DNA of 64,000 nt, taken from positions 2,976,001 to 3,040,000 of the forward strand of contig NZ_CP133777.1 in NCBI RefSeq assembly GCF_034347385.1, given 5' to 3'. Under the pieces are notes generated by a model that saw only the letters and a list, made by a program, of their open reading frames with translations, had not been told where the DNA came from and ran no database searches. A program made the position numbers and the translations under genes. Positions 1-16,842 of the stretch are shown in pieces. This stretch comes from Actimicrobium sp. CCC2.4 (GTDB lineage Bacteria > Pseudomonadota > Gammaproteobacteria > Burkholderiales > Burkholderiaceae_D). Position 1 is the stretch's first letter. Every line of letters starts with the position of its first letter.

Positions 1-107
1 TCAGCCTGCCCAACATGATCACCCGCGCGACGCTGCGTTCCGGTGTGGCCGAGGCGCTCTCGCTGATCAACCGGCGCATCGTGCCGGTGGCATCGAGCCG
101 CGCATGA
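1..107 (+). CDS. RsbR-type stressosome scaffold protein, C-terminal end only (partial)
   Basis: An open frame enters from the left edge and stops with TGA at 105-107. The visible 34 residues contain ITRATLRSGVAEAL, which resembles the end of the STAS domain of RsbR co-antagonists. Those proteins build the stressosome core together with RsbS and carry the sensory N-terminal domain. The stop overlaps the ATG of the next gene (RsbS), as expected for rsbR-rsbS coupling. The sensor domain, which would tell the signal, is outside the window. Confidence 0.6.
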   Translation, partial: SLPNMITRATLRSGVAEALSLINRRIVPVASSRA

Positions 108-505
108 AGATCGCGATCCCGCGTCTCGGACGCATCCTGCTGGTGGCGATCCAGCAGGATCTCAGTGATGACGAAGCGTTGGCGTTCCAGTCGAACCTGC
201 TCGGCACGATCGCCGAAATCGAAGCGCTCGGTGTGGTCGTCGATATCTCGGCGCTCGATGTGGTCGACTCGTTCATGGCGCGTGTCATCAACGACACTGC
301 CAACATGGCACGGCTGCTCGGTGCCGAAGTCATCGTTTGCGGCATCCAGCCTTTCGTCGCCTTCACGCTGGTTGAAATGGGACGCGGCCTGCTCAGTGCC
401 GACTGCACGTTCAACCTCGAACAGGGACTGAAAACCCTGCAATCACGGATCGCCTCGCGCGGCGATTACAGCCTGCCGGATGAACACGATGACCTCATTA
501 TCTGA
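104..505 (+). CDS. rsbS: Stressosome antagonist RsbS (STAS domain)
   Basis: 133 residues forming a single STAS domain. In the family RsbS is the small scaffold subunit that, with RsbR, sequesters the kinase RsbT until RsbT phosphorylates it. The expected phosphoacceptor serine is present in VVDSFMAR (Ser56), equivalent to Ser59 of Bacillus RsbS. A C-terminal tail of about 15 acidic residues (DEHDD) follows the domain. The ATG overlaps the stop of the RsbR fragment, and the gene overlaps the RsbT start by 26 nt, so translation is probably coupled throughout. The role is inferred from motif and neighbours. Confidence 0.85.
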   Translation: MKIAIPRLGRILLVAIQQDLSDDEALAFQSNLLGTIAEIEALGVVVDISALDVVDSFMARVINDTANMARLLGAEVIVCGIQPFVAFTLVEMGRGLLSADCTFNLEQGLKTLQSRIASRGDYSLPDEHDDLII

Positions 506-911
506 ACCCGATGCAGTCGTCGATATCTGCACCACGGCCGACATCGTGGTGGCCCGCCGGCTCACGCGCCAGCTTGCGGCCTGCCTCGATTTCGGCAGTG
601 CCGACCAGACCCGGCTGGCCACCGCCGTGTCCGAACTGACGCGCAACGTGATCGAATATGCGGGCCGCGGTACATGCCATATCTCGGACGCGTCCGATGC
701 CGGCTTTAACAGCATCATGGTCGTCGTCGAGGACCACGGGCCGGGTATTGCCAACGTGGCGCAAGCCATGCAGGACGGCTACAGCACCAGCGGCAGCCTC
801 GGTGCCGGACTGCCGGGAACGCGCCGTCTGGTCGACAGCTTCATGATCGAATCCCGGCCCGGCCTGACCCGCGTGACCATCAGCATGTCGATGCGCAAGG
901 ACCGGCCGTGA
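480..911 (+). CDS. rsbT: Serine kinase / switch protein RsbT
   Basis: 143-residue GHKL-fold ATPase of the RsbT/RsbW family. ATP-site motifs are intact: N box SELTRNV (about 51-57), G1 EDHGPGI (about 83-89), and G2 GSLGAGLPGTRRL. In known stressosomes RsbT phosphorylates RsbS and RsbR, is released, and then activates RsbU through the RsbU N-terminal domain. Here the likely downstream partner is the histidine kinase at 1890-2939, which carries an RsbU_N-like front end. An alternative start is Met4 (position 489). It overlaps rsbS by 26 nt and the next gene by 4 nt. Confidence 0.85.
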   Translation: MNTMTSLSEPDAVVDICTTADIVVARRLTRQLAACLDFGSADQTRLATAVSELTRNVIEYAGRGTCHISDASDAGFNSIMVVVEDHGPGIANVAQAMQDGYSTSGSLGAGLPGTRRLVDSFMIESRPGLTRVTISMSMRKDRP

Positions 912-1303
912 TGACCGGCACCGGATCGATCCGCATTGCAATCGACTCCGATGTCGCTACCGCCTGCCGCGCCGCGCGCTTGGCGGCCGAACAGAGCGGC
1001 TTCGATCGCAAGCGCAGCTATCAGATCGCGACGGCGGCATCGGAACTGGCACGCAACGTACTGGTTCACGGCGGCGGCGGCACGGTCACGGTCAGCACGC
1101 CGGGCCATCGCAACGGCATCGAACTGCTGGCCATCGACCATGGTCCCGGCATCGCCGATCTGGCGCTGGCGATGCAGGAGGGTTTTAGCACCACGGGTAG
1201 CCTCGGTGGCGGGTTACCCGGTGTCGAACGCCTGATGGATGAAGTCGTCATCGAGACCGCTGTAGGACTCGGTACCACGATACGGGCCTCCAAATGGCTA
1301 TGA
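908..1303 (+). CDS. Second RsbT/RsbW-type anti-sigma-factor-like kinase
   Basis: 131 residues, a second GHKL ATPase with SELARNV, DHGPGIADL and GSLGGGLPGVERL. It is clearly related to the preceding RsbT and may have arisen by duplication, although the N-terminal halves differ. The start overlaps the previous stop (ATGA-type). Paired RsbT-like kinases are found in some Gram-negative stressosome clusters. One may act on RsbS/RsbR and the other on a separate STAS antagonist, but the sequence does not show which. No sigma factor is encoded nearby, so a classic RsbW role is less likely. Confidence 0.75.
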   Translation: MMTGTGSIRIAIDSDVATACRAARLAAEQSGFDRKRSYQIATAASELARNVLVHGGGGTVTVSTPGHRNGIELLAIDHGPGIADLALAMQEGFSTTGSLGGGLPGVERLMDEVVIETAVGLGTTIRASKWL

Positions 1304-1893
1304 CCTTCGGCTATGCGCAACAGGCCTGCCGGGGCGATCCGGTGTGTGGCGATATCGGCACCTGGTGGGAAGGTCCGCACCGGTATGTGCTGGCACTGGC
1401 CGACGGGCTCGGCCACGGTGCGCCGGCGCATCGTGCCGCCAGCGCAGCGATGCAGTGCATTGCCGAACACCTCGATGCCAGTTGCGCCGTGATGTTTGCG
1501 GCGTGCAATGAACGCCTGCTCGATACCCGTGGTGCGGTGCTGGCCATCGCCATCATCGACCGCGATAGCAACCTGCTGACGCTGGGCGTCATCGGCAATA
1601 TCGGGGTACGGGTGTTCGGCATCAACAGCGCAGTGCGGCTTGGCGCAGGACGCGGCTTTGTCGGTGCCGGCTATGCGCTGCCGGCACCGGACCAGTTACG
1701 TCTCGACGATGGCGACCGGCTCATCATGGTCACTGACGGCATCGACGAATCAGACGGCATGCGAACCTGCATGGAACGCAGTGACGAAAGCTCGCAGCAG
1801 CTGGCTGACGATGTCTTGCAGGGCTGGGGCAACCAGGATGACGATGCGGCAGTGCTGGTGTACCAGCATCGCCATACAGGGAGTGGGCGATGA
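1294..1893 (+). CDS. RsbX-like PP2C/SpoIIE-type serine phosphatase
   Basis: 199-residue minimal PP2C (SpoIIE) domain. Metal-binding motifs can be seen: GDIGTWW near the start, ALADGLGHG (about 34-42), and VTDGIDE toward the C-terminus. Its length matches RsbX, which resets stressosomes by removing phosphate from RsbS and RsbR, rather than RsbU, which has an extra N-terminal domain. It overlaps the preceding kinase by 10 nt and the following histidine kinase by 4 nt, within the same operon. Confidence 0.8.
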   Translation: MAMTFGYAQQACRGDPVCGDIGTWWEGPHRYVLALADGLGHGAPAHRAASAAMQCIAEHLDASCAVMFAACNERLLDTRGAVLAIAIIDRDSNLLTLGVIGNIGVRVFGINSAVRLGAGRGFVGAGYALPAPDQLRLDDGDRLIMVTDGIDESDGMRTCMERSDESSQQLADDVLQGWGNQDDDAAVLVYQHRHTGSGR

Positions 1894-2939
1894 GCGACAT
1901 GCATGATATTTACTATGCGCTGCTGTACAAATCGGTCTTCAACGAAGATCCGGAGGAGGCACTGGTGGCAGCGGCTGACTTTGGCCGTGACCTGATGAAG
2001 CACGGCATCCCGCCGGAAGGAGTAATCGAAATCCACCAGAAAGCCGTCTTGCGATTGGCCGGCGCGTATCCGGAACTGACGCTGCAACAGGTCGCCGCGC
2101 CGCTGATGGCACCGCTGATGGAAGCATCGATGGCGTTCAGCTTTGCCTTTCGCAAGCAGCGTGAAACCCGCGACGTGCTGGAGATGCAGCTGGCCCGCGC
2201 CGGCCGGCTCGAGGCGATCGGCACGATGGCCGCCGGTATCGCGCACGACTTCAACACCATCATCGGGATCGTCAATGGCTACGCTGAATTGCTGATCGAG
2301 GACTATCCGGATACCAGCAATACGATGGAATACACGCAGCAGATCGTCACCGCCAGCCTGCGCGCACGCGACCTGGTCGTGCGCATGCTGGCGTTTGCGC
2401 GCCAGACACCGATCGCGCCATGCAGCGTCGATGCGGTGGCACTGGTGCGTAACGTCCTGAAGATGATCCGCATGACCCTGCCGCCGGCGATCAACGTGAC
2501 CTTCCGGCCCGAGATGGAAACCGCCTACACGGTGGCCGATCCGCTGCAGGTCGAACAGGTAGTCATGAACCTGTGCATGAACGCCGCCGACGCCATGGAG
2601 GGTTCCGGCAACCTCGAACTGCAGATCGCGCCGGCACCGCCTGTGCTGCACGTCGACGGCTCGCTGATCCCGCGCTTTGCCCTGATCGTCGATGACAATG
2701 GTTGCGGCATGTCGGCCGATGTGCAGCAGCGTGCGCTCGATCCGTTCTACACAACCAAAGCGCCGGGTAAAGGCAGCGGGCTGGGCCTGTCGGTGGTGTA
2801 CGGCATCATCAGCGATCTCGGTGGACAGCTCGATATTCATAGCGAAGTCGGCATGGGCAGCAGCTTCCGGATTTACCTGCGGCTGGCCGGCCGGACGCCG
2901 CCGGAGCCGACGACAAGCGCTTTACCCGAGATTCACTAA
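1890..2939 (+). CDS. Histidine kinase with RsbU_N-like N-terminal domain
   Basis: 349 residues. Residues 1-90 are a helical segment resembling the N-terminal domain of RsbU, the surface bound by RsbT. Residues 100-170 form a HisKA-like helix pair with His119 in IAHDFN, followed by a HATPase domain with NLCMNAADAM, VDDNGCGM and GKGSGLGLSV. There are no membrane segments, so it should be cytoplasmic. The architecture suggests that RsbT released from the stressosome controls a histidine kinase instead of a PP2C phosphatase. The likely partner receiver is the next gene. The RsbU_N assignment rests on residue pattern only. Confidence 0.75.
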   Translation: MSDMHDIYYALLYKSVFNEDPEEALVAAADFGRDLMKHGIPPEGVIEIHQKAVLRLAGAYPELTLQQVAAPLMAPLMEASMAFSFAFRKQRETRDVLEMQLARAGRLEAIGTMAAGIAHDFNTIIGIVNGYAELLIEDYPDTSNTMEYTQQIVTASLRARDLVVRMLAFARQTPIAPCSVDAVALVRNVLKMIRMTLPPAINVTFRPEMETAYTVADPLQVEQVVMNLCMNAADAMEGSGNLELQIAPAPPVLHVDGSLIPRFALIVDDNGCGMSADVQQRALDPFYTTKAPGKGSGLGLSVVYGIISDLGGQLDIHSEVGMGSSFRIYLRLAGRTPPEPTTSALPEIH

Positions 2940-2964
2940 CCAACCACTGCAAAGGAACTCCGCC

Positions 2965-3333
2965 ATGGCACATATCCTGGTCGTCGAAGACGATATCCAG
3001 TTCCGGCAAATGCTGGTTCACATGCTGCAAAAAGATCAGCACAAGATCACGATGGCCTCGGACGGCATGGAAGCGATGCAATTACTCAGGAACCTGGAAC
3101 CGGATCTGATCCTGACCGATATCCTGATGCCGCACATGGACGGCGTCGAAATCATTCTGGCCTTATCGCAGCAGAGCAATACCATCCCGATCATCGCGAT
3201 GTCGGGCGGCAGGCGTGCGATCAGCTCGGATTTCAATCTCGAGTCGGCCTCGCTGCTGGGGGTCAAGGCGGTGCTGGCGAAACCGTTTTCGCATGCCGAT
3301 CTGCGTCGCGTGATCGGCGAGATGCTGGCATGA
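2965..3333 (+). CDS. Single-domain response regulator
   Basis: 122-residue stand-alone receiver. Acidic pocket VVEDD near the start, phosphoacceptor Asp52 in LTDILMPHMDG, conserved Lys in AKPFSHADL. The ATG at 2965 has an AAGGA ribosome site 8-10 nt upstream; a longer frame that opens inside the kinase gene is not needed. No output domain, so it must act by protein contact, perhaps on the ParA-like ATPase whose start overlaps its stop by 4 nt. It is presumably phosphorylated by the histidine kinase 25 nt upstream. Confidence 0.85.
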   Translation: MAHILVVEDDIQFRQMLVHMLQKDQHKITMASDGMEAMQLLRNLEPDLILTDILMPHMDGVEIILALSQQSNTIPIIAMSGGRRAISSDFNLESASLLGVKAVLAKPFSHADLRRVIGEMLA

Positions 3334-4139
3334 GCGCGCGGCCGGGCCCGTGTGTCATTGCGGTCTGCAACCGCAAAGGCGGTGCCGGCAAGACCACCAC
3401 CGCCGTCAACCTCGCCGCGGAACTGGCGGCGCTGGGCCAACGCGTGTTGCTGGTCGACCTGGATTCGCAAGGACATTGTGCGGTCGGACTGGGCCTCAAG
3501 GTGACGCCGGGCAGCGCCACAGTGCATGCGCTGTTTGGTACAGCCGGTGCCGGCATCCGGCTCATGGATGTGGTGCAAGCCAGTGCGATCGAGCGGCTCT
3601 GGCTGGCACCGGCCGACCAGCTGTTCGAACACGGTAGCGGTGCGCGCGATCCGATGCTGCTCGCGCAAGCGCTGACCGATCACGCGCTGACCAGCCACTT
3701 CGATCTGGTGATCCTCGACACGCCGCCATCGCTCGATATCCTGCTGCTCAATGCGCTCTCGGCCGCGCACTGGGTACTGGTGCCGTATATCCCGCATCCG
3801 CTGTCGTTCGAAGGCGTGCGGCAACTGATGCGCATCCTGTTCAAGGTCATGTCAGTCCAGAATCCGGGACTGAAAATTCTGGGCTTTCTGCCGATGACGG
3901 CGGCCGAACATATCCGCCAGCATCGCAGCATCAGCGTTGATGTCTCACGCCAGTTCGGTGCGCACCGGGTGCTGGGCGGTATCCGCAACGACATCAAGCT
4001 GGCTGAATCCTTCGCCGCCGGCAAACCGGTGCGCTATTACGCGCCCGGCAGCCGCGGCGCGCAGGATTTTGCAGCACTGGCGGCCAGCTTGCTGCCCACA
4101 CTGGCGGGTAGCGATACCGTTGCCAGGATGACTACTTGA
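3330..4139 (+). CDS. ParA/MinD-family ATPase
   Basis: 269 residues. A deviant Walker A motif near the N-terminus, NRKGGAGKTTTA with signature Lys16 and Lys21, is followed by the Walker A' LVDLDSQGH and Walker B VILDTPPSL. This family positions DNA or protein cargo by ATP-dependent dimerisation. No parB-like gene or parS-like site is seen nearby and the gene is the last of the stressosome operon, which argues against chromosome partitioning. It could localise signalling or chemotaxis clusters. That role is an inference from context alone. Confidence 0.75.
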   Translation: MSARPGPCVIAVCNRKGGAGKTTTAVNLAAELAALGQRVLLVDLDSQGHCAVGLGLKVTPGSATVHALFGTAGAGIRLMDVVQASAIERLWLAPADQLFEHGSGARDPMLLAQALTDHALTSHFDLVILDTPPSLDILLLNALSAAHWVLVPYIPHPLSFEGVRQLMRILFKVMSVQNPGLKILGFLPMTAAEHIRQHRSISVDVSRQFGAHRVLGGIRNDIKLAESFAAGKPVRYYAPGSRGAQDFAALAASLLPTLAGSDTVARMTT

Positions 4140-4353: not shown

Positions 4354-4965
4354 ATGCCTGCTGCTGAAATTTGTACCACCCAGAATGCCGCGCGAATCCT
4401 CGGCATTTCGGTGACCTCGGTACAGCAACTGGTGGAAGCCGGCGTCATTGAAGCCTGGAAGACCAAAGGCGGCCATCGCCGCATTCCACTGGCGGCTATC
4501 CAGGCTTACAAAGTTGCCCAAACCACGGTGTCCGAGCACGGCAGCGCGCGTGCCATGCCGGGCCGCAAACCGGCCATCCTGGTGATCGAGGACAACCTGA
4601 TGCAGCGCGAGATTTACCAGAAACAGATCCAGTCATGGGACCTCGACGCGACACTGACTTTTTGCGAAAACGGCTACCAGGCGCTGATCGAAATCGCCCG
4701 CAACAAGCCTAATGTCCTGCTGGCCGACATCATGATGGATGGCATCGACGGCTATGAAGTCGTCACCACGATCCTGGGCTATCCCGATCTGTCGGACATG
4801 CATATCGCGATCCTGTCTAGCCTGACCAGAGAAGAACTGGGCGAGCGTGGCGGCATCCCGAACGGCGTCGTGTACTTCGGCAAGCCGGTCAACTATGACG
4901 AACTGCGCGGCTATCTGCGCGCCTGCTGCGCCCAGCAACATCGCAACTTATCGATTGCTTCCTGA
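4354..4965 (+). CDS. HTH (MerR/excisionase-like) plus receiver protein
   Basis: 203 residues with reversed order for a response regulator: residues 5-52 are a short winged-helix DNA-binding module (AARILGISVTSVQQL, then KGGHRRI typical of excisionase-type helices), and residues 72-195 are a receiver domain with phosphoacceptor Asp125 in LADIMMDGIDGYEV and the conserved Lys in YFGKPV. Probably a DNA-binding response regulator whose binding is set by phosphorylation. The cognate kinases are likely those encoded next. AAAGGACGG supports the start. Confidence 0.75.
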   Translation: MPAAEICTTQNAARILGISVTSVQQLVEAGVIEAWKTKGGHRRIPLAAIQAYKVAQTTVSEHGSARAMPGRKPAILVIEDNLMQREIYQKQIQSWDLDATLTFCENGYQALIEIARNKPNVLLADIMMDGIDGYEVVTTILGYPDLSDMHIAILSSLTREELGERGGIPNGVVYFGKPVNYDELRGYLRACCAQQHRNLSIAS

Positions 4966-4987
4966 CCCCACACGGCGCCACACCATC

Positions 4988-6616
4988 ATGCTGAAAAAAA
5001 TCGATGCCCGCATCCTGCTGTGCGTATTTGCCGCCGTGCTGGTGGCCGGACTCTGGACAATAACGCTGCTGCAGTTGCGCACAACCCGGCAAGTCATCAT
5101 CGACAACACGCAGCGCGACGTGCGTAGTCTGGCGCGACTGTTCAACGAACACGCCAACCGCACCGTCGAGTCGGCCGACCAGGCCGTGACGTATCTGCGT
5201 TTCCGGTACAACACGCTGGGTACCGGGCTCGATATTGCGCAGGACTTGAAGGTTGGCCTCAACCCGGACAGCATCTACAACCTGTTTTCCATCGTCGATG
5301 AACACGGCGATGTGGTGCTGTCGAGCCAGCCGTTCAAGCCAATCAACCTGTCCGATCGCGAGCATGTGAAAGTACATGCCGGTGCCGACAGCGGCGAACT
5401 ATTCATCAGCCGCCCGGTACTCGGCCGGGTCTCGAAAAAATGGTCGATCCAGATGACCCGCCGTATCAATTACCCGGATGGCCGCTTCAAGGGTGTCGTC
5501 GTGGTGTCAATGGATCCGCAATACTTCATCCGCTTGTATAACGACATCGATGTCGGCAAATACGACGTGATCACGCTGGTCGGCACCGACGGCGTGGTCC
5601 GCGTGCGCCGGGTCGGCGACCAGGTTTCGATGGGCATGGATGTGTCGGCGAGTCCGTTCTTCCAGCTCATGCAAAAAACCGGCCGCGGCGTGACCACGGC
5701 GGTCAGCACAATCGATGGTCGCGAGCGCATCCAGGCCTACGAAACGCTGCAGCACTATCCACTGGTGGTCACGGTGGGAGCCGATATCGAGGAACGGCTG
5801 GCACCGTATTACGTCGACCGCAACCAGTCCCTGCTCATCGCTGCCGTGATCAGTGCGGTGATCGCCTTGTTCACGGCCAGCATCATCATTCTGGTCGGCC
5901 GGCTGATGGCCAGCCGCGAAAAAGCCATCGCGGCCAGCCTGGCCAAGTCGCGCTTCCTGTCGAACATGTCGCACGAGTTGCGCACGCCGCTCAACGGTAT
6001 CCTGGGCTTTTCGGAGGTGATGGTCGAGGAGCTCGGCAGCCAATCCCTGCATGGCGGCTTCGCGCAAGCGATTCATGGCAGCGGCGTGCGTTTGCTGGCG
6101 CTGGTCGATGCAACGCTGGAATTGAGTGCGCTCGAATCCGGCACCATCGTGCTGGCACCGCAACCCGAAAACCTGGCACTGCTGTTGCAGCACGCCACCG
6201 CGCCCTACCTGGCAGCGGCTGCCGCCAAGCAGCTTGCGCTGGACATCGAGATCGATCCGGCCACGCCTGCCACGCTGGTGTGCGACCGGGTCCGCTTGCT
6301 GATGGTGCTCGACAAACTGCTCGACAATGCGATGCGCCACACCGATGCCGGCACCATCCTTGTCAGCGCCCGCCCGGGCGGGACCGGTCTCGAGCTGACC
6401 GTGCGTGATTCCGGTTGCGGCGTGCCGGCGCACTTGCAGGAGCAGATTTTCGAACGTTTTTCGCAAGCCGACGATTCGGCAGCACGCAGCAGCGAAGGTG
6501 CCGGACTGGGATTGGCGATCGCCCGGCATCTGGTCGAACTGATGGATGGAGAACTCACGCTGAAATCTTTTTCCGGACAAGGTGCGCAATTTTCAGTTAC
6601 TCTTCGGCAACATTAA
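4988..6616 (+). CDS. Membrane histidine kinase with periplasmic Cache domain
   Basis: 542 residues. Membrane helix 1 at about 8-29, a periplasmic double-Cache-like sensor at about 30-275, helix 2 at about 281-305, HisKA with His329 in NMSHELRTPLNG, and a HATPase domain ending with GAGLGLAIARHL. The ATG at 4988 was chosen because an upstream in-frame ATG lies inside the previous gene and the protein then starts right before its first membrane helix. No receiver domain is attached, so phosphate probably goes to the HTH-receiver protein encoded 22 nt upstream or into the HPt protein pathway downstream. The ligand is unknown. Confidence 0.8.
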   Translation: MLKKIDARILLCVFAAVLVAGLWTITLLQLRTTRQVIIDNTQRDVRSLARLFNEHANRTVESADQAVTYLRFRYNTLGTGLDIAQDLKVGLNPDSIYNLFSIVDEHGDVVLSSQPFKPINLSDREHVKVHAGADSGELFISRPVLGRVSKKWSIQMTRRINYPDGRFKGVVVVSMDPQYFIRLYNDIDVGKYDVITLVGTDGVVRVRRVGDQVSMGMDVSASPFFQLMQKTGRGVTTAVSTIDGRERIQAYETLQHYPLVVTVGADIEERLAPYYVDRNQSLLIAAVISAVIALFTASIIILVGRLMASREKAIAASLAKSRFLSNMSHELRTPLNGILGFSEVMVEELGSQSLHGGFAQAIHGSGVRLLALVDATLELSALESGTIVLAPQPENLALLLQHATAPYLAAAAAKQLALDIEIDPATPATLVCDRVRLLMVLDKLLDNAMRHTDAGTILVSARPGGTGLELTVRDSGCGVPAHLQEQIFERFSQADDSAARSSEGAGLGLAIARHLVELMDGELTLKSFSGQGAQFSVTLRQH

Positions 6617-6650
6617 CGGTAGTCATTATTTAGCGACAAAAGGTAAGCCG

Positions 6651-7046
6651 ATGTCAGAACACTCCTATTGCGTCATCGATCCGCACTTCCTGCTACAGAC
6701 CGCCGGTGCCGACATCGAGCTCTTCCGCGAACTGTCGGCGATGTTCGTGACACTGGCCGGTCCGGTCCATGCACGGCTGGCACTGGCCATGCAAAACGGC
6801 GACACCAAGGCAACGCATTTTGAGAGCCATTCGCTCAAAGGCAGCACGGCACTGGTCGGTGCACGGGAACTGAGTACCCTGCTCGGCGAGATCGAAGCCC
6901 ATGCACGCCGGGAACGCAATGATTTGATCTTGCCCTGCCTGCCGGAATTGAACCGTCTGTTTGCGCTGGTGGTGGAAGAGGTCAACTTCAGCCTTGACCA
7001 CTTCGACGGCCGGCCCGGTGCCGGTGTGATGCCGGACGCGCCGTAA
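6651..7046 (+). CDS. Histidine phosphotransfer (HPt) protein
   Basis: 131 residues with the HPt signature around His60 in FESHSLKGSTALVGA. HPt proteins shuttle phosphate between the receiver of a hybrid kinase and a terminal response regulator. The ATG at 6651 follows AGGTAAGCCG. It lies between a simple Cache kinase and a hybrid Cache kinase and shares one base with the latter's ATG, so the natural reading is hybrid kinase receiver, then HPt, then HTH-receiver protein at 4354. The route of phosphate flow is inferred. Confidence 0.8.
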   Translation: MSEHSYCVIDPHFLLQTAGADIELFRELSAMFVTLAGPVHARLALAMQNGDTKATHFESHSLKGSTALVGARELSTLLGEIEAHARRERNDLILPCLPELNRLFALVVEEVNFSLDHFDGRPGAGVMPDAP

Positions 7047-9244
7047 TGACGCAATCCCTGACACCCCGTAAAAGTTCGTCGGCAAGACATGCCACGGCCA
7101 TCATCGGCAGCCTGCTGATCATCCTGCTGGTGGCGGCTACCGTGGCATCAAGCTGGGTGCTGCGTGATCGCGCCATCGAAGACTGGCGTCGGGACCTTGG
7201 CAACCTGTCCCTGGTGATGGCAGAAAATACCTCGCAAACTATGGCCTCTGCTTACCTGGTGCTCGACAGCATCGGCGAACTGGTCGAGAACACCAGCATC
7301 AGCAACCAGGCGGAGCTGATCAAGACTTTCCACAACGCGGCCACCTATCAAATGATGCGTGACAAGGTCAGCGGCTTGCCGCAGATCGACGTGGTCACCA
7401 TCGTCGGCGCGAACGGTGACGTGATCAACTTCACCCGGGCTTTTCCGGCACCGGCGATCAATCTGGCCAACCGGGATTATTTTGCCCATCATCGCGACAA
7501 TGTCGACCCGGCCGTTTTCCTCAGCACGCCCGTCAAGAACAAGGGCAATGGCAAATGGACGTTCTACATCAGCCGTCGCGTCAACAGTAACGAGGGCCAA
7601 TTCCTTGGCATGGTGCGGGTGGGTATTTCGTGTGATTTTTTTGCGGATTTTTTCAAGAACGTGAGCCTGGGCGAAGAAGCGTCGGTGTCGCTGCTGCGAC
7701 GCGACTACACCTTGCTGGCACGCTGGCCGGATGCCGACAAGCTGATGGGCAATCGCAATCTGCTGGGTGCGACCCATACGGTACTTGAAGCCGGCAAGAC
7801 CCACGATGTCATCCTCACGAACGCGCCGCGGCCGATTGACGGCATGCAGCAAACGCCGCGCATGGGTGCGGTGCGACTGGTGCGCGGCTATCCGCTGGCC
7901 GTCAACATCACCATTACCGAAGACCTGTACCTGAGCAGCTGGCGCAGCACGGTGCGCCTGCTGGGTGGCATCGGCCTGGTCAGTCTGCTGGCGCTGTGCG
8001 GAGCCTTCATCCTGATGGCGATCATCCTGAAGCGGCGCGAACTGGACGCCGAGCAGGCCCTCACGCTGAAACGCGAGGCCGAGGAAGCCAATACCGCCAA
8101 GTCCAGCTTCCTGGCGATGATGAGCCATGAAATCCGCACGCCGATGAACGGCATACTCGGCATGGCGGAACTGATGCTCGACACGCCGCTCGATGCCAGC
8201 CAGCGCACGTATGCCGGTAATGTCTACAACGGCGCGCACCACCTGATGCGGATCATCAACGAGATTCTGGATTTTTCAAAAGTCGAGTCGGGCCACATGG
8301 AAATCGACCTGACCACGTTTGATCCGACCCGCCTGATTGGCGAAGTGATCGGCCTGCATCGCAACGGCGCAACGGCCAAACAGCTGCAGATCAGGACCGA
8401 GATCGCACCGGCAGCCGCGCTGCTGGTCAGTGCCGACGCCAGCCGGATCCGTCAGGTGCTGGGCAACCTGATCAACAATGCGATCAAGTTCACGCCAGCC
8501 GGAGCGATCACGGTGCGCTTCGTGGGTCTGCCCGATCCCGCCGATGCGACCCTGGTGCAACTCGAGTACAGCGTCACCGACAGCGGGATCGGCATCAGCG
8601 CCGAGGCGCAGCAACGCTTGTTCGAACCCTTCGTCCAGGCCGACAATACGATCAGCCGCAAGTATGGTGGCACCGGCCTGGGCCTGGCCATTTGCAAGCG
8701 ACTGGTTGAACTGATGCGCGGCGACATCCGCTGCGAAAGCGATATCGGTGCCGGCACGCGGTTTTCATTTCGCATCCCGGCCAGGGTCATTGAGCAACCG
8801 GTGATCATCACGTCGCCGCCGGTGCCCGTCACCGCGGCGGTGCCATCGCAGGAGAACAGCGTGCAGGCATTACGCGTACTGGTAGTTGAAGACACTGAAA
8901 TGAACCGGCAGCTGGTACGCATACTGCTCGGCAAGCGCGGCTGCATTGTTGAAGAAGCCGTTAATGGTCAGCTCGCGCTGGAAGCGCTGGCCATGAAGCA
9001 GTACGACCTGGTCCTGATGGATTGCATGATGCCGGTGATGGATGGCTACGAAGCCACCCGGCGCCTGCGCGAGCGCGAAGCCGCGAATGGCGCTGCGCGC
9101 ATGCCCGTCATTGCGCTGACCGCCAGCGCCATCGAAGGCGATCGGGAGCGCTGCCTCGACGCCGGCATGGATGACTATCTGGCCAAGCCGTTCTCTGCGG
9201 CGCAGCTCACTACGATCATCGAAAAATGGCGCAAGGCCGGTTAA
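7046..9244 (+). CDS. Hybrid histidine kinase: Cache - HisKA - HATPase - receiver
   Basis: 732 residues. Helix 1 at about 18-38, periplasmic double-Cache-like sensor at about 45-295, helix 2 at about 303-327, HisKA with His361 in MMSHEIRTPMNG, HATPase with NLINNAIKF, TDSGIGIS and GGTGLGLAI (to about 577), then a receiver at about 607-730 with Asp659 in LMDCMMPVMDGYEA. The closing ALTASA and LAKPF are typical. The internal receiver needs an HPt partner, and one is encoded just upstream. Sensor ligand unknown. Confidence 0.85.
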   Translation: MTQSLTPRKSSSARHATAIIGSLLIILLVAATVASSWVLRDRAIEDWRRDLGNLSLVMAENTSQTMASAYLVLDSIGELVENTSISNQAELIKTFHNAATYQMMRDKVSGLPQIDVVTIVGANGDVINFTRAFPAPAINLANRDYFAHHRDNVDPAVFLSTPVKNKGNGKWTFYISRRVNSNEGQFLGMVRVGISCDFFADFFKNVSLGEEASVSLLRRDYTLLARWPDADKLMGNRNLLGATHTVLEAGKTHDVILTNAPRPIDGMQQTPRMGAVRLVRGYPLAVNITITEDLYLSSWRSTVRLLGGIGLVSLLALCGAFILMAIILKRRELDAEQALTLKREAEEANTAKSSFLAMMSHEIRTPMNGILGMAELMLDTPLDASQRTYAGNVYNGAHHLMRIINEILDFSKVESGHMEIDLTTFDPTRLIGEVIGLHRNGATAKQLQIRTEIAPAAALLVSADASRIRQVLGNLINNAIKFTPAGAITVRFVGLPDPADATLVQLEYSVTDSGIGISAEAQQRLFEPFVQADNTISRKYGGTGLGLAICKRLVELMRGDIRCESDIGAGTRFSFRIPARVIEQPVIITSPPVPVTAAVPSQENSVQALRVLVVEDTEMNRQLVRILLGKRGCIVEEAVNGQLALEALAMKQYDLVLMDCMMPVMDGYEATRRLREREAANGAARMPVIALTASAIEGDRERCLDAGMDDYLAKPFSAAQLTTIIEKWRKAG

Positions 9245-15651: not shown

Positions 15652-16842
15652 TCAGTCGTCCTCGGGCAGGATGGGAATCGTTATCCGCAGCGTGGTGCCG
15701 CGCCCGCGCGTGCTGTCGATGGTCAGTTCGCCATTGAGGTAGTGGATCCGTTCGGTGATGCCGACCAGCCCGAAGGAATTGGCCTTGCGCCGGCAACCGG
15801 GACGGATGCCGATGCCGTTGTCGGCAATCGACAGCGAGAGCCGGTTGCCGCTGCGCGTGAGCGCGATGCTGACGCGGCCGGCCTGGGCGTGACGGTTGAT
15901 GTTGGTGAGCGACTCTTGCAGGATACGGAACAGCGCGGTGGCACGGTGGTCGTCGAGTTCGAATTCGGCATGATCAAAATGCAGGTCACACACGACCAGG
16001 CTGCGGCGCTGGAATTCCCTGACCTGCCATTCGATGGCCGCATGCAGGCCGAAGTCCAGCACCCCCGGTCGCAGGTTATTGATGATGACCCGTACCGAGG
16101 CCATGATGGCATCGATCTGGCCAAGTGCGCCGGCGGCTTTCCGGCTCAGGTGCGGATGACGGCTGCCGCAGCGGACCATCAGCATCGAGACATCGAGCCG
16201 CAGTGCCAGCAGGTTCTGGCCCAGTTCGTCGTGGATTTCGCGGGCGATGCGCTTGCGCTCGGCTTCCTTGATCTGGTCCTGATGCGCCGCCAGTTCGCGC
16301 AGCAGGCTTTGCAACTGCAGTAGTTCATGTTCGATGCGACGGCGTTCGGCGACTTCGGATTGCAGCATCGTGATGGCCTGTACCAGTGCGTTGGTACTGC
16401 CGGCATCGGCGGCGCTGGCCGGCAGCGCCGAGCCATCGTCGGCACTGCCGTGCAGGATTAGGCCGTAACCGAGCAACTCGCGACGGCCGTCGAGCAGCCG
16501 GCGCAGCGTGCCACTGACCCGTACCGGCGAACCGTTCTTGCGCATGCGCCAGCCGTCGTAGCGGATTTTGTCGCGGCAGCGGGCTTGCTTGAGATCGGAT
16601 TCAGGCACGCCATCGGCGATATGCAAGGGCGGATACAGACAGCTGACATGCCGGCCGAGGATCTCGTCGTCGCGATAACCGGTCAGCAACCGGGCACCCC
16701 GGTTCCAGCTGACGATCAGACCGGCGGCATCGAGCGTGACCAAGGCCTGCTCGTCGAGTTCGGCGACCAGCAGACCGACCAGGTCGGGGGTGCCGGCATG
16801 ACGGCTATCGGGCAAAGAACTCGGCACGTGGGTAGTTGGCAT
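15652..16842 (-). CDS. PAS-domain sensor histidine kinase, NarX/DegS type
   Basis: 396 residues. A PAS-like domain at about 25-135 (LVTLDAAGLIVSWNRGA, GYGLIL), a coiled linker, a HisKA_3 helix with His204 in IAREIHDELGQNL, and a short HATPase domain with ILQESLTNINRH, ADNGIGI and GLVGITERI. No membrane segment, so a cytoplasmic sensor. No response regulator is adjacent. It is related in kinase type to the kinase at 35443-36936, whose NarL-type regulator might also serve it. The start was not tested against alternatives. Confidence 0.75.
   Translation of the reverse strand: MPTTHVPSSLPDSRHAGTPDLVGLLVAELDEQALVTLDAAGLIVSWNRGARLLTGYRDDEILGRHVSCLYPPLHIADGVPESDLKQARCRDKIRYDGWRMRKNGSPVRVSGTLRRLLDGRRELLGYGLILHGSADDGSALPASAADAGSTNALVQAITMLQSEVAERRRIEHELLQLQSLLRELAAHQDQIKEAERKRIAREIHDELGQNLLALRLDVSMLMVRCGSRHPHLSRKAAGALGQIDAIMASVRVIINNLRPGVLDFGLHAAIEWQVREFQRRSLVVCDLHFDHAEFELDDHRATALFRILQESLTNINRHAQAGRVSIALTRSGNRLSLSIADNGIGIRPGCRRKANSFGLVGITERIHYLNGELTIDSTRGRGTTLRITIPILPEDD

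Follow-up and report, generated by a model that had tools for sequence, protein, structure and literature searches.

The window analysed here, a stretch of 64,000 nucleotides from Actimicrobium sp. CCC2.4 (G000:C1:2976001-3040000 of a single-contig genome of 4.15 Mb), opens inside the gene rsbR, and the genes found there probably belong to a stressosome module that is nested in a chemosensory operon. All eight genes of the set are on the + strand in the order RsbR (partial)-RsbS-RsbT1-RsbT2-RsbX-kinase-receiver-ParA, and neighbouring genes overlap at six of the seven junctions (spacing, in order, -4, -26, -4, -10, -4, +25 and -4 bp); a gap of 214 bp lies downstream of the ParA gene. A sequence-only reading of this DNA had described the RsbR-S-T-T2-X genes as running with overlapping starts into the kinase, receiver and ParA genes, and its gene calls were right. 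The features, given by their positions in the window, are the following.

1..107, + strand, RsbR, 3' end (full gene of 292 amino acids, L007:9229-10107, with its start upstream of the window; RsbRD_N and STAS domains)
104..505, + strand, RsbS, STAS scaffold protein (STAS, E 4.6e-11)
480..911, + strand, RsbT1, RsbT-type switch kinase (HATPase_c_2)
908..1303, + strand, RsbT2, second RsbT-type switch kinase (HATPase_c_2)
1294..1893, + strand, RsbX-type PP2C feedback phosphatase (SpoIIE/PP2C)
1890..2939, + strand, histidine kinase with N-terminal RsbU_N (RsbU_N, then HisKA and HATPase_c)
1890..2174, + strand, RsbU_N domain of the kinase, residues 1-95 (Pfam, match to 2j6z, structure model)
2965..3333, + strand, single-domain receiver of a third CheY-like family (neither single CheY of the upstream operon belongs to it)
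3330..4139, + strand, ParA-family ATPase (AAA_31, E 4.9e-34)

Analyses of the deduced proteins revealed that RsbR combines an N-terminal sensor-like domain with a STAS domain, that RsbS is a single STAS domain and that an RsbT-type kinase and an RsbX-type phosphatase are both present. Sequence matches to solved structures were obtained for RsbS (the RsbS 6jhk, E 2.6e-28), RsbR (an RsbR, E 2.3e-30) and RsbX (the RsbX-type phosphatases 3zt9, E 3.3e-18, and 3w40, E 3.1e-7). The RsbS of the window shares 99% identity with the one from Oxalobacteraceae bacterium IMCC9480 (Burkholderiales by NCBI). Alignment of 14 loci showed that the RsbS stretch VVDS[FY]MAR, which includes the Ser59-type site, and the RsbR stretch IDT, the Thr171-type site, are kept in all of them, while at the second RsbR site (Thr205-type) nine loci have Thr, one has Ser, and the window has Ile, as do L054, L056 and L057; the phosphosites are numbered as we take them to be in RsbS and RsbR. 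Neither RsbT matched a solved RsbT in the sequence search of the PDB, where RsbT1 weakly matched only histidine kinases and RsbT2 matched an anti-sigma F factor. The RsbT assignment is based on the domain, the gene order and the stretches SEL.RN and ST[ST]G.LG.GLPG, which we take to be RsbT motifs and which are kept in both proteins. Either RsbT1 or RsbT2 may be the working RsbT. In loci of sister families an RsbT-kind HATPase domain is fused to the RsbX phosphatase (Pfam, L042), which suggests that RsbT2 and RsbX act together; in other loci long RsbX frames with an RsbT match were found. A search of the genome with the full RsbR (E <= 0.001) gave nothing beyond RsbR itself and RsbS, and Pfam called no haem globin in RsbR. 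No sigma regulator was seen in the cluster, as had been claimed before.

Residues 9-62 of the kinase match Pfam RsbU_N (PF08673, E 3e-6), and residues 8-96 directly match the solved N-terminus of RsbU (2j6z, E 3.9e-5). The C-terminal PP2C phosphatase domain of RsbU is absent and HisKA and HATPase_c stand in its place, so that the protein is, as judged from its domains, a histidine kinase with an RsbU_N domain and no RsbU. The earlier statement that an RsbU phosphatase is lacking thus holds for the phosphatase domain but not for the RsbU N-terminal domain, which the kinase carries. No second RsbU_N was found in the genome of the window (E <= 0.1), and among 14 control genomes Bacillus subtilis alone was positive. 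Because the fold search with the model of the full-length kinase matched the kinase part alone, the N-terminus was modelled separately, and a four-helix bundle was predicted with confidence (predicted local distance difference test, pLDDT, 94.4). Since the kinase starts with RsbU_N, the domain on which RsbT docks, the likely output of the module would be this kinase, with the signal passing from RsbT through the kinase to the receiver; the earlier claim of a stressosome wired to a two-component output was in this respect borne out.

In related loci the RsbU_N proteins encoded after rsbX carry differing C-terminal parts, as in the Methylobacter locus L063, where a PAS-GGDEF-EAL protein with RsbU_N is encoded downstream of rsbX. 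This RsbU_N-PAS-GGDEF-EAL gene and an extra RsbT-like gene are inserted ahead of the RsbU_N kinase (L063:11773-14416). A plasmid search with the kinase of the window gave hits in 2641 records, none of which reached 60% identity.

Directly upstream of the rsb genes, and hidden by the edge of the window, a chemosensory operon was identified in which CheA, CheW, CheB, CheR, CheY and methyl-accepting chemotaxis proteins (MCPs) are encoded together. Its genes are given below by their coordinates in L185 and L007.

L185:5481-7394, same strand as the rsb genes, MCP with two signalling regions (hydropathy shows no membrane segment)
L185:7403-8995, same strand as the rsb genes, triple CheW
L007:1018-2061, same strand as the rsb genes, CheB
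L007:2042-2698, same strand as the rsb genes, HEAT-repeat protein
L007:2706-3548, same strand as the rsb genes, CheR
L007:3545-3919, same strand as the rsb genes, CheY (first)
L007:3916-6528, same strand as the rsb genes, CheA
L007:6792-7166, same strand as the rsb genes, CheY (second)
L007:7163-8404, same strand as the rsb genes, membrane MCP

The genome encodes five more CheA-type dimerisation domains, and the upstream operon is therefore one of several such systems. A simple hydropathy scan of the second, membrane MCP showed closely spaced membrane segments in 14 of 17 sequences, the exceptions being L068 and L175 with no segment and L108 with one; in the window's genome Pfam found the MCP signalling domain alone in this protein. 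The membrane MCP ends in ELF (L007:8393-8401) in 15 of the 17 sequences and in QLF or QFF in two, and this end may serve to tether a partner such as CheR or CheB. In its nearest relatives, with or without ParA, the N-terminus of the first MCP is basic and conserved, MAL(V/I)KK..RKKARTLAKQQQAAERIA, and may be seen as reminiscent of nucleoid-binding FrzCD or of ParA-stimulating peptides. Between the membrane MCP and rsbR the genome of the window has a spacer of 824 bp (L007:8405-9228). This spacer holds a 12-bp tandem repeat (GTTGAAGTGGCG, 6.8 copies); in several other genera the two genes nearly touch.

The same arrangement, a che block with a stressosome module behind it, was found in an Undibacterium metagenome-assembled genome (MAG; L057), a Burkholderiaceae MAG (L060), Methylococcaceae (L061, L063 and L064), a Desulfuromonadales MAG (L062), a Thiorhodovibrio MAG (L066), Catenovulum (L069), genomes G308 (L098) and G447 (L108/L207) and a Comamonadaceae MAG (L068) whose contig begins in CheB. 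The joint block spans beta- and gammaproteobacteria and a Desulfuromonadales MAG. On the truncated contig L056, from the genus of the window, CheY-CheA-CheY-MCP precede rsbR, and L065 shows CheY-MCP-R-S-T1 and no more. Among 18 loci of an RsbS scan both systems were present in ten, no che operon was present in five (L058, L059, L067, L070 and L071) and three were short or partial (L054, L055 and L065). The distance from the MCP stop to rsbR, measured to the opening of the frame and not to a start codon, is -85 to +14 bases in eight loci (L060-L066 and L069) and 83-163 bases in L057, L098 and L056; it is larger in L068, L108/L207 and the window's genome.

RsbS (E <= 1e-15) was detected in 9 of 369 genomes of the class, 23 of 398 of the phylum and 17 of 399 of the order, the own genome being included each time. 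For the HEAT protein (E <= 1e-12) the counts, again with the own genome included, were 11 of 369 in the class and 9 of 369 in the phylum, the latter from a search with the L057 protein. The composite locus is rare but broad. In L175 a truncated rsbX (15988-16299, profile positions 91-186 of 187) lies between the MCP and an RsbU_N kinase that is followed by a receiver, and no rsbR, rsbS or rsbT was called nearby; the locus looks like a decayed composite whose central part, the stressosome core, seems to have been lost. The distribution fits a stressosome module that was inserted into, and sometimes lost from, an ancestral MCP-receiver-ParA operon.

The distribution of ParA was scored by profile in 80 loci (81 minus the duplicate L108 = L207), a hit to HEAT or CheR being taken as a che call, so that L056, with a contig that starts after those genes, counts as lacking che, a choice that works against the reading preferred here. 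ParA was found in five of the 12 loci with che and RsbS, in seven of the 16 che loci without RsbS (the nine that lack it include several short contigs) and in two of the 51 RsbS loci without che. These two, L054 and L056, are contigs from the genus of the window that start after the che genes or part of them. With a looser earlier scoring, in which L045 passed as che-positive because of a single CheA of a different kind, ParA was present in 6 of 14 rsbS loci with che versus 1 of 49 without (Fisher p 0.00027). The che clusters that hold a ParA of the same kind without rsbS are L172, L176, L178, L181, L182, L201 and L202; in the last five ParA lies between CheA and a CheY, while the receiver-ParA pair stands right after the MCP in L172 and about 5 kb from the MCP in L176. 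L172 belongs to MAG G1145; the stressosome of this MAG (L059) lies on a different contig that has neither a che operon nor ParA.

The phylogenetic tree of 34 ParA-family proteins separated 13 ParAs of the loci (seven che+rsb, five che-only and L173; L201 and L202 were left out) from 21 others with branch support of 100/99; the tree holds full-length matches alone, and five of its rows are long-branched, two of them che ParAs. The P-loop KGGxGKT is intact in all 11 ParAs aligned. A chromosome-partition ParA was considered and rejected, since the tree separates the locus ParAs from the best-matching other full-length proteins of the ParA family in these genomes, including 339251-339997 of the window's genome. 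The protein is thus a ParA-type P-loop ATPase encoded in a che cluster and distinct from the other ParAs of the same genomes. Because its distribution follows che and because of the split in the tree, it is probably an array positioner of the PpfA/ParC type, a likeness drawn from the che context. The ParA of L173 (9571-10443) is 47% identical to that of the window and adjoins a CNNM/CorC gene.

The sequence-only reading had named absence of ParA from the same cluster in close relatives as a finding that would weaken its idea; ParA is kept there in L054, L056 and L057 (94, 89 and 76% identical). After the gap of 214 bases downstream of parA, window positions 4354-9244 hold a second signalling set composed of a protein in which an HTH_17/MerR-like DNA-binding domain precedes a receiver, a dCache histidine kinase, an Hpt protein and a hybrid kinase. 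Among the loci compared, the first two genes of this set stand beside ParA solely in L039/L054, one contig of IMCC9480 that ends there.

The tree of the receivers, a quick tree from few columns with rows labelled by best profile score, assigned the receiver to a separate group with 15 rows, distinct from both other CheYs (Shimodaira-Hasegawa-like approximate likelihood ratio test, SH-aLRT, 99). This receiver was present in 10 of the 12 loci with che and rsbS, in three of the 16 che-only loci (L172, L175 and L176) and in two of the 51 rsbS loci that gave no che call (L054 and L056). In L068 it lies between the MCP and rsbR. The receiver goes with the che genes.

We consider it probable that rsbR-rsbS-rsbT1-rsbT2-rsbX and the RsbU_N kinase are nested in a chemosensory operon whose ParA positions the arrays, and that the kinase acts on the third CheY. 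The stressosome module would sit between the membrane chemoreceptor and the receiver-parA tail of the operon, and the genes would be transcribed jointly. RsbR and RsbS would build the stressosome and hold RsbT; upon a cytoplasmic stress signal RsbT would phosphorylate RsbS (Ser59-type) and RsbR (Thr171-type), leave the stressosome, dock on the RsbU_N domain of the kinase and switch it. The kinase would then phosphorylate the third CheY-like receiver, and since this receiver appears to belong to the chemosensory system, stress and CheA inputs would meet at the receiver level. RsbX, probably with RsbT2, would reset the module, and ParA would position or partition chemosensory arrays, its putative cargo, without being a signalling output.

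The sequence-only reading had proposed instead that the stressosome controls ParA through kinase and receiver and that spatial control is the output. The receiver and ParA genes do overlap by 4 bp and stand last in the operon, and the pair is kept in L054, L056, L057 and L061-L063. However, the pair also occurs in che clusters without rsbS (L172 and L176), ParA occurs without the third receiver between CheA and CheY in L178, L181, L182, L201 and L202, 49 of the 51 rsbS loci without che have no ParA (the other two being truncated contigs) and joint loci without any such ParA exist. Since ParA is found without rsbS and is missing from nearly all rsbS loci without che, it is most likely not the output of the stressosome, and we regard that proposal as very unlikely. 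A different arrangement, which we think improbable, is that the stressosome is the sensory input of the array, RsbR/RsbS or freed RsbT acting on MCP or CheA and ParA co-positioning both. It is suggested by the membrane MCP, which has no evident ligand-binding domain: its predicted membrane segments are close together in 14 of 17 sequences, Pfam finds the signalling domain alone in the protein of the window's genome, and rsbR opens within -85 to +14 bases of its stop in eight loci. Yet the same MCP family occurs without rsbS in L172 and L176, the RsbU_N kinase already gives the stressosome an exit route, and no known domain linking RsbR to an MCP was seen.

The two systems could also be mere neighbours, independent of each other, with receiver and ParA serving the array alone. 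In genomes G1145 (L059 and L172) and G175 (L174 and L183) stressosome and che cluster are on different contigs, and 51 of 63 rsbS loci show no che call, a few of these being short contigs. Against this, the same gene order is seen in a Desulfuromonadales MAG and in several families of proteobacteria, rsbR opens at the MCP stop within the short range given above in L060-L066 and L069, and in L175 the RsbU_N kinase and the receiver have outlasted the apparent loss of the core; this reading seems unlikely to us. Somewhat less doubtful, and still only a tentative possibility, is a hybrid system in which a cytoplasmic stressosome and the array share assembly, placement by ParA and readout, kinase and CheA having the third CheY in common, and in which the membrane MCP, with no evident sensor domain, may take up the stressosome signal.

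Several findings weigh against the nested system that we prefer. Composites are rare: beyond the own genome they were found in one of eight RsbS genomes of the class draw (all eight fetched), and with the own genome left out in one of the 18 genomes fetched from the 22 of the phylum draw and in none of the 13 fetched from the 16 of the order draw, some of the stretches fetched lying on short contigs. HEAT protein and RsbS co-occur only weakly above chance, in 2 of 368 class genomes with the own genome left out (Fisher p 0.017), and in one of these two (G175) they are on separate contigs. Because the loci were collected via RsbS, HEAT or ParA hits, the locus counts show association and not frequency. 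A single transcript from MCP to rsbR is not assured in the window's genome, since 824 bp lie between them. ParA is absent from seven of the 12 che+rsbS loci (L060, L064, L066, L068, L069, L098 and L207), of which L064 is cut by the contig end; the best ParA matches in the seven genomes are 31-37% identical, and as these genomes hold no close ParA elsewhere ParA is optional. The ParA of L173 (Thiorhodospira), which falls in the same group, has no che or rsb neighbours, and L172 and L059, both of one MAG, are linked by the bin alone. The receiver is under the cut in L064 (contig end) and L207. Foldseek puts an RsbU structure first for the RsbU_N model, yet with E 0.15, and VIA favours KaiA (Z 10.1; 87 residues, 2.3 A) over RsbU (Z 6.2; 63 residues, 3.1 A, 27% identity); RsbU_N and the C-terminal domain of KaiA are classed together. 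The RsbU_N assignment rests on sequence, and the fold comparison alone is not decisive.

Parts of this system have precedents, and two of them, ParA encoded within che operons and RsbU_N kinases downstream of stressosomes, have already been published. Signalling proteins with RsbU_N downstream of rsbX are described in sections of Heinz et al. 2022 (PMC9237108), and passages of PMC12143880 place kinases among the RsbU_N proteins downstream of stressosomes. As far as these portions of the two papers go, the locus shares with the Gram-negative RSTX modules the rsbR-S-T-X order, the lack of a sigma cascade and the downstream RsbU_N proteins, but differs in having two RsbT genes, an RsbRD_N RsbR without a called haem globin and a chemosensory embedding; section 10 of PMC9237108 names no chemotaxis operon, MCP or ParA. 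For the O2-sensing stressosome of Vibrio brasiliensis the authors suggest, in the part of PMC4976288 cited here, a control of aerotaxis because a CheY-like gene adjoins rsbR/S/T; there a single CheY-like neighbour accompanies a haem-globin RsbR, whereas here a full MCP-CheW-CheB-CheR-CheA operon and an RsbU_N kinase are found.

According to excerpts of PMC2829493 and PMC10241942, ParA homologues are common in che operons and position chemosensory arrays. The present locus resembles those of PpfA (Rhodobacter sphaeroides) and ParC (Vibrio/Halothiobacillus) in having a ParA-family ATPase in a che cluster, and is unlike them, as described there, in that a stressosome lies between chemoreceptor and parA. 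The che1 locus of Shewanella oneidensis with the CrsR/CrsA switch for RpoS (PMC9855816, in part) is another chemosensory locus that holds stress partner-switch genes; CrsA/CrsR is an anti-sigma type switch, whereas here a stressosome and an RsbU_N kinase are present and no sigma regulator was seen. Like FrzCD of Myxococcus xanthus (PMC5716589), the first MCP lacks a membrane segment and has a positively charged N-terminus, but it differs in its two MCP signalling regions and its conserved N-terminal motif. Among the papers listed, which were part of all matches (12 of 2,530 in one case) and left subscription journals and preprints largely outside the scope, no title or start of an abstract describes a stressosome nested in a chemosensory operon together with a third receiver that goes with the che genes.

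Stressosomes and chemosensory arrays rank among the largest signalling assemblies of bacteria and have mostly been studied separately, and the targets of Gram-negative stressosomes are still poorly known. In this conserved joint locus a docking domain would name the stressosome target and the receiver follows the array genes. The joint locus thus offers a concrete setting in which signal exchange between both assemblies, and its possible route, can be tested.

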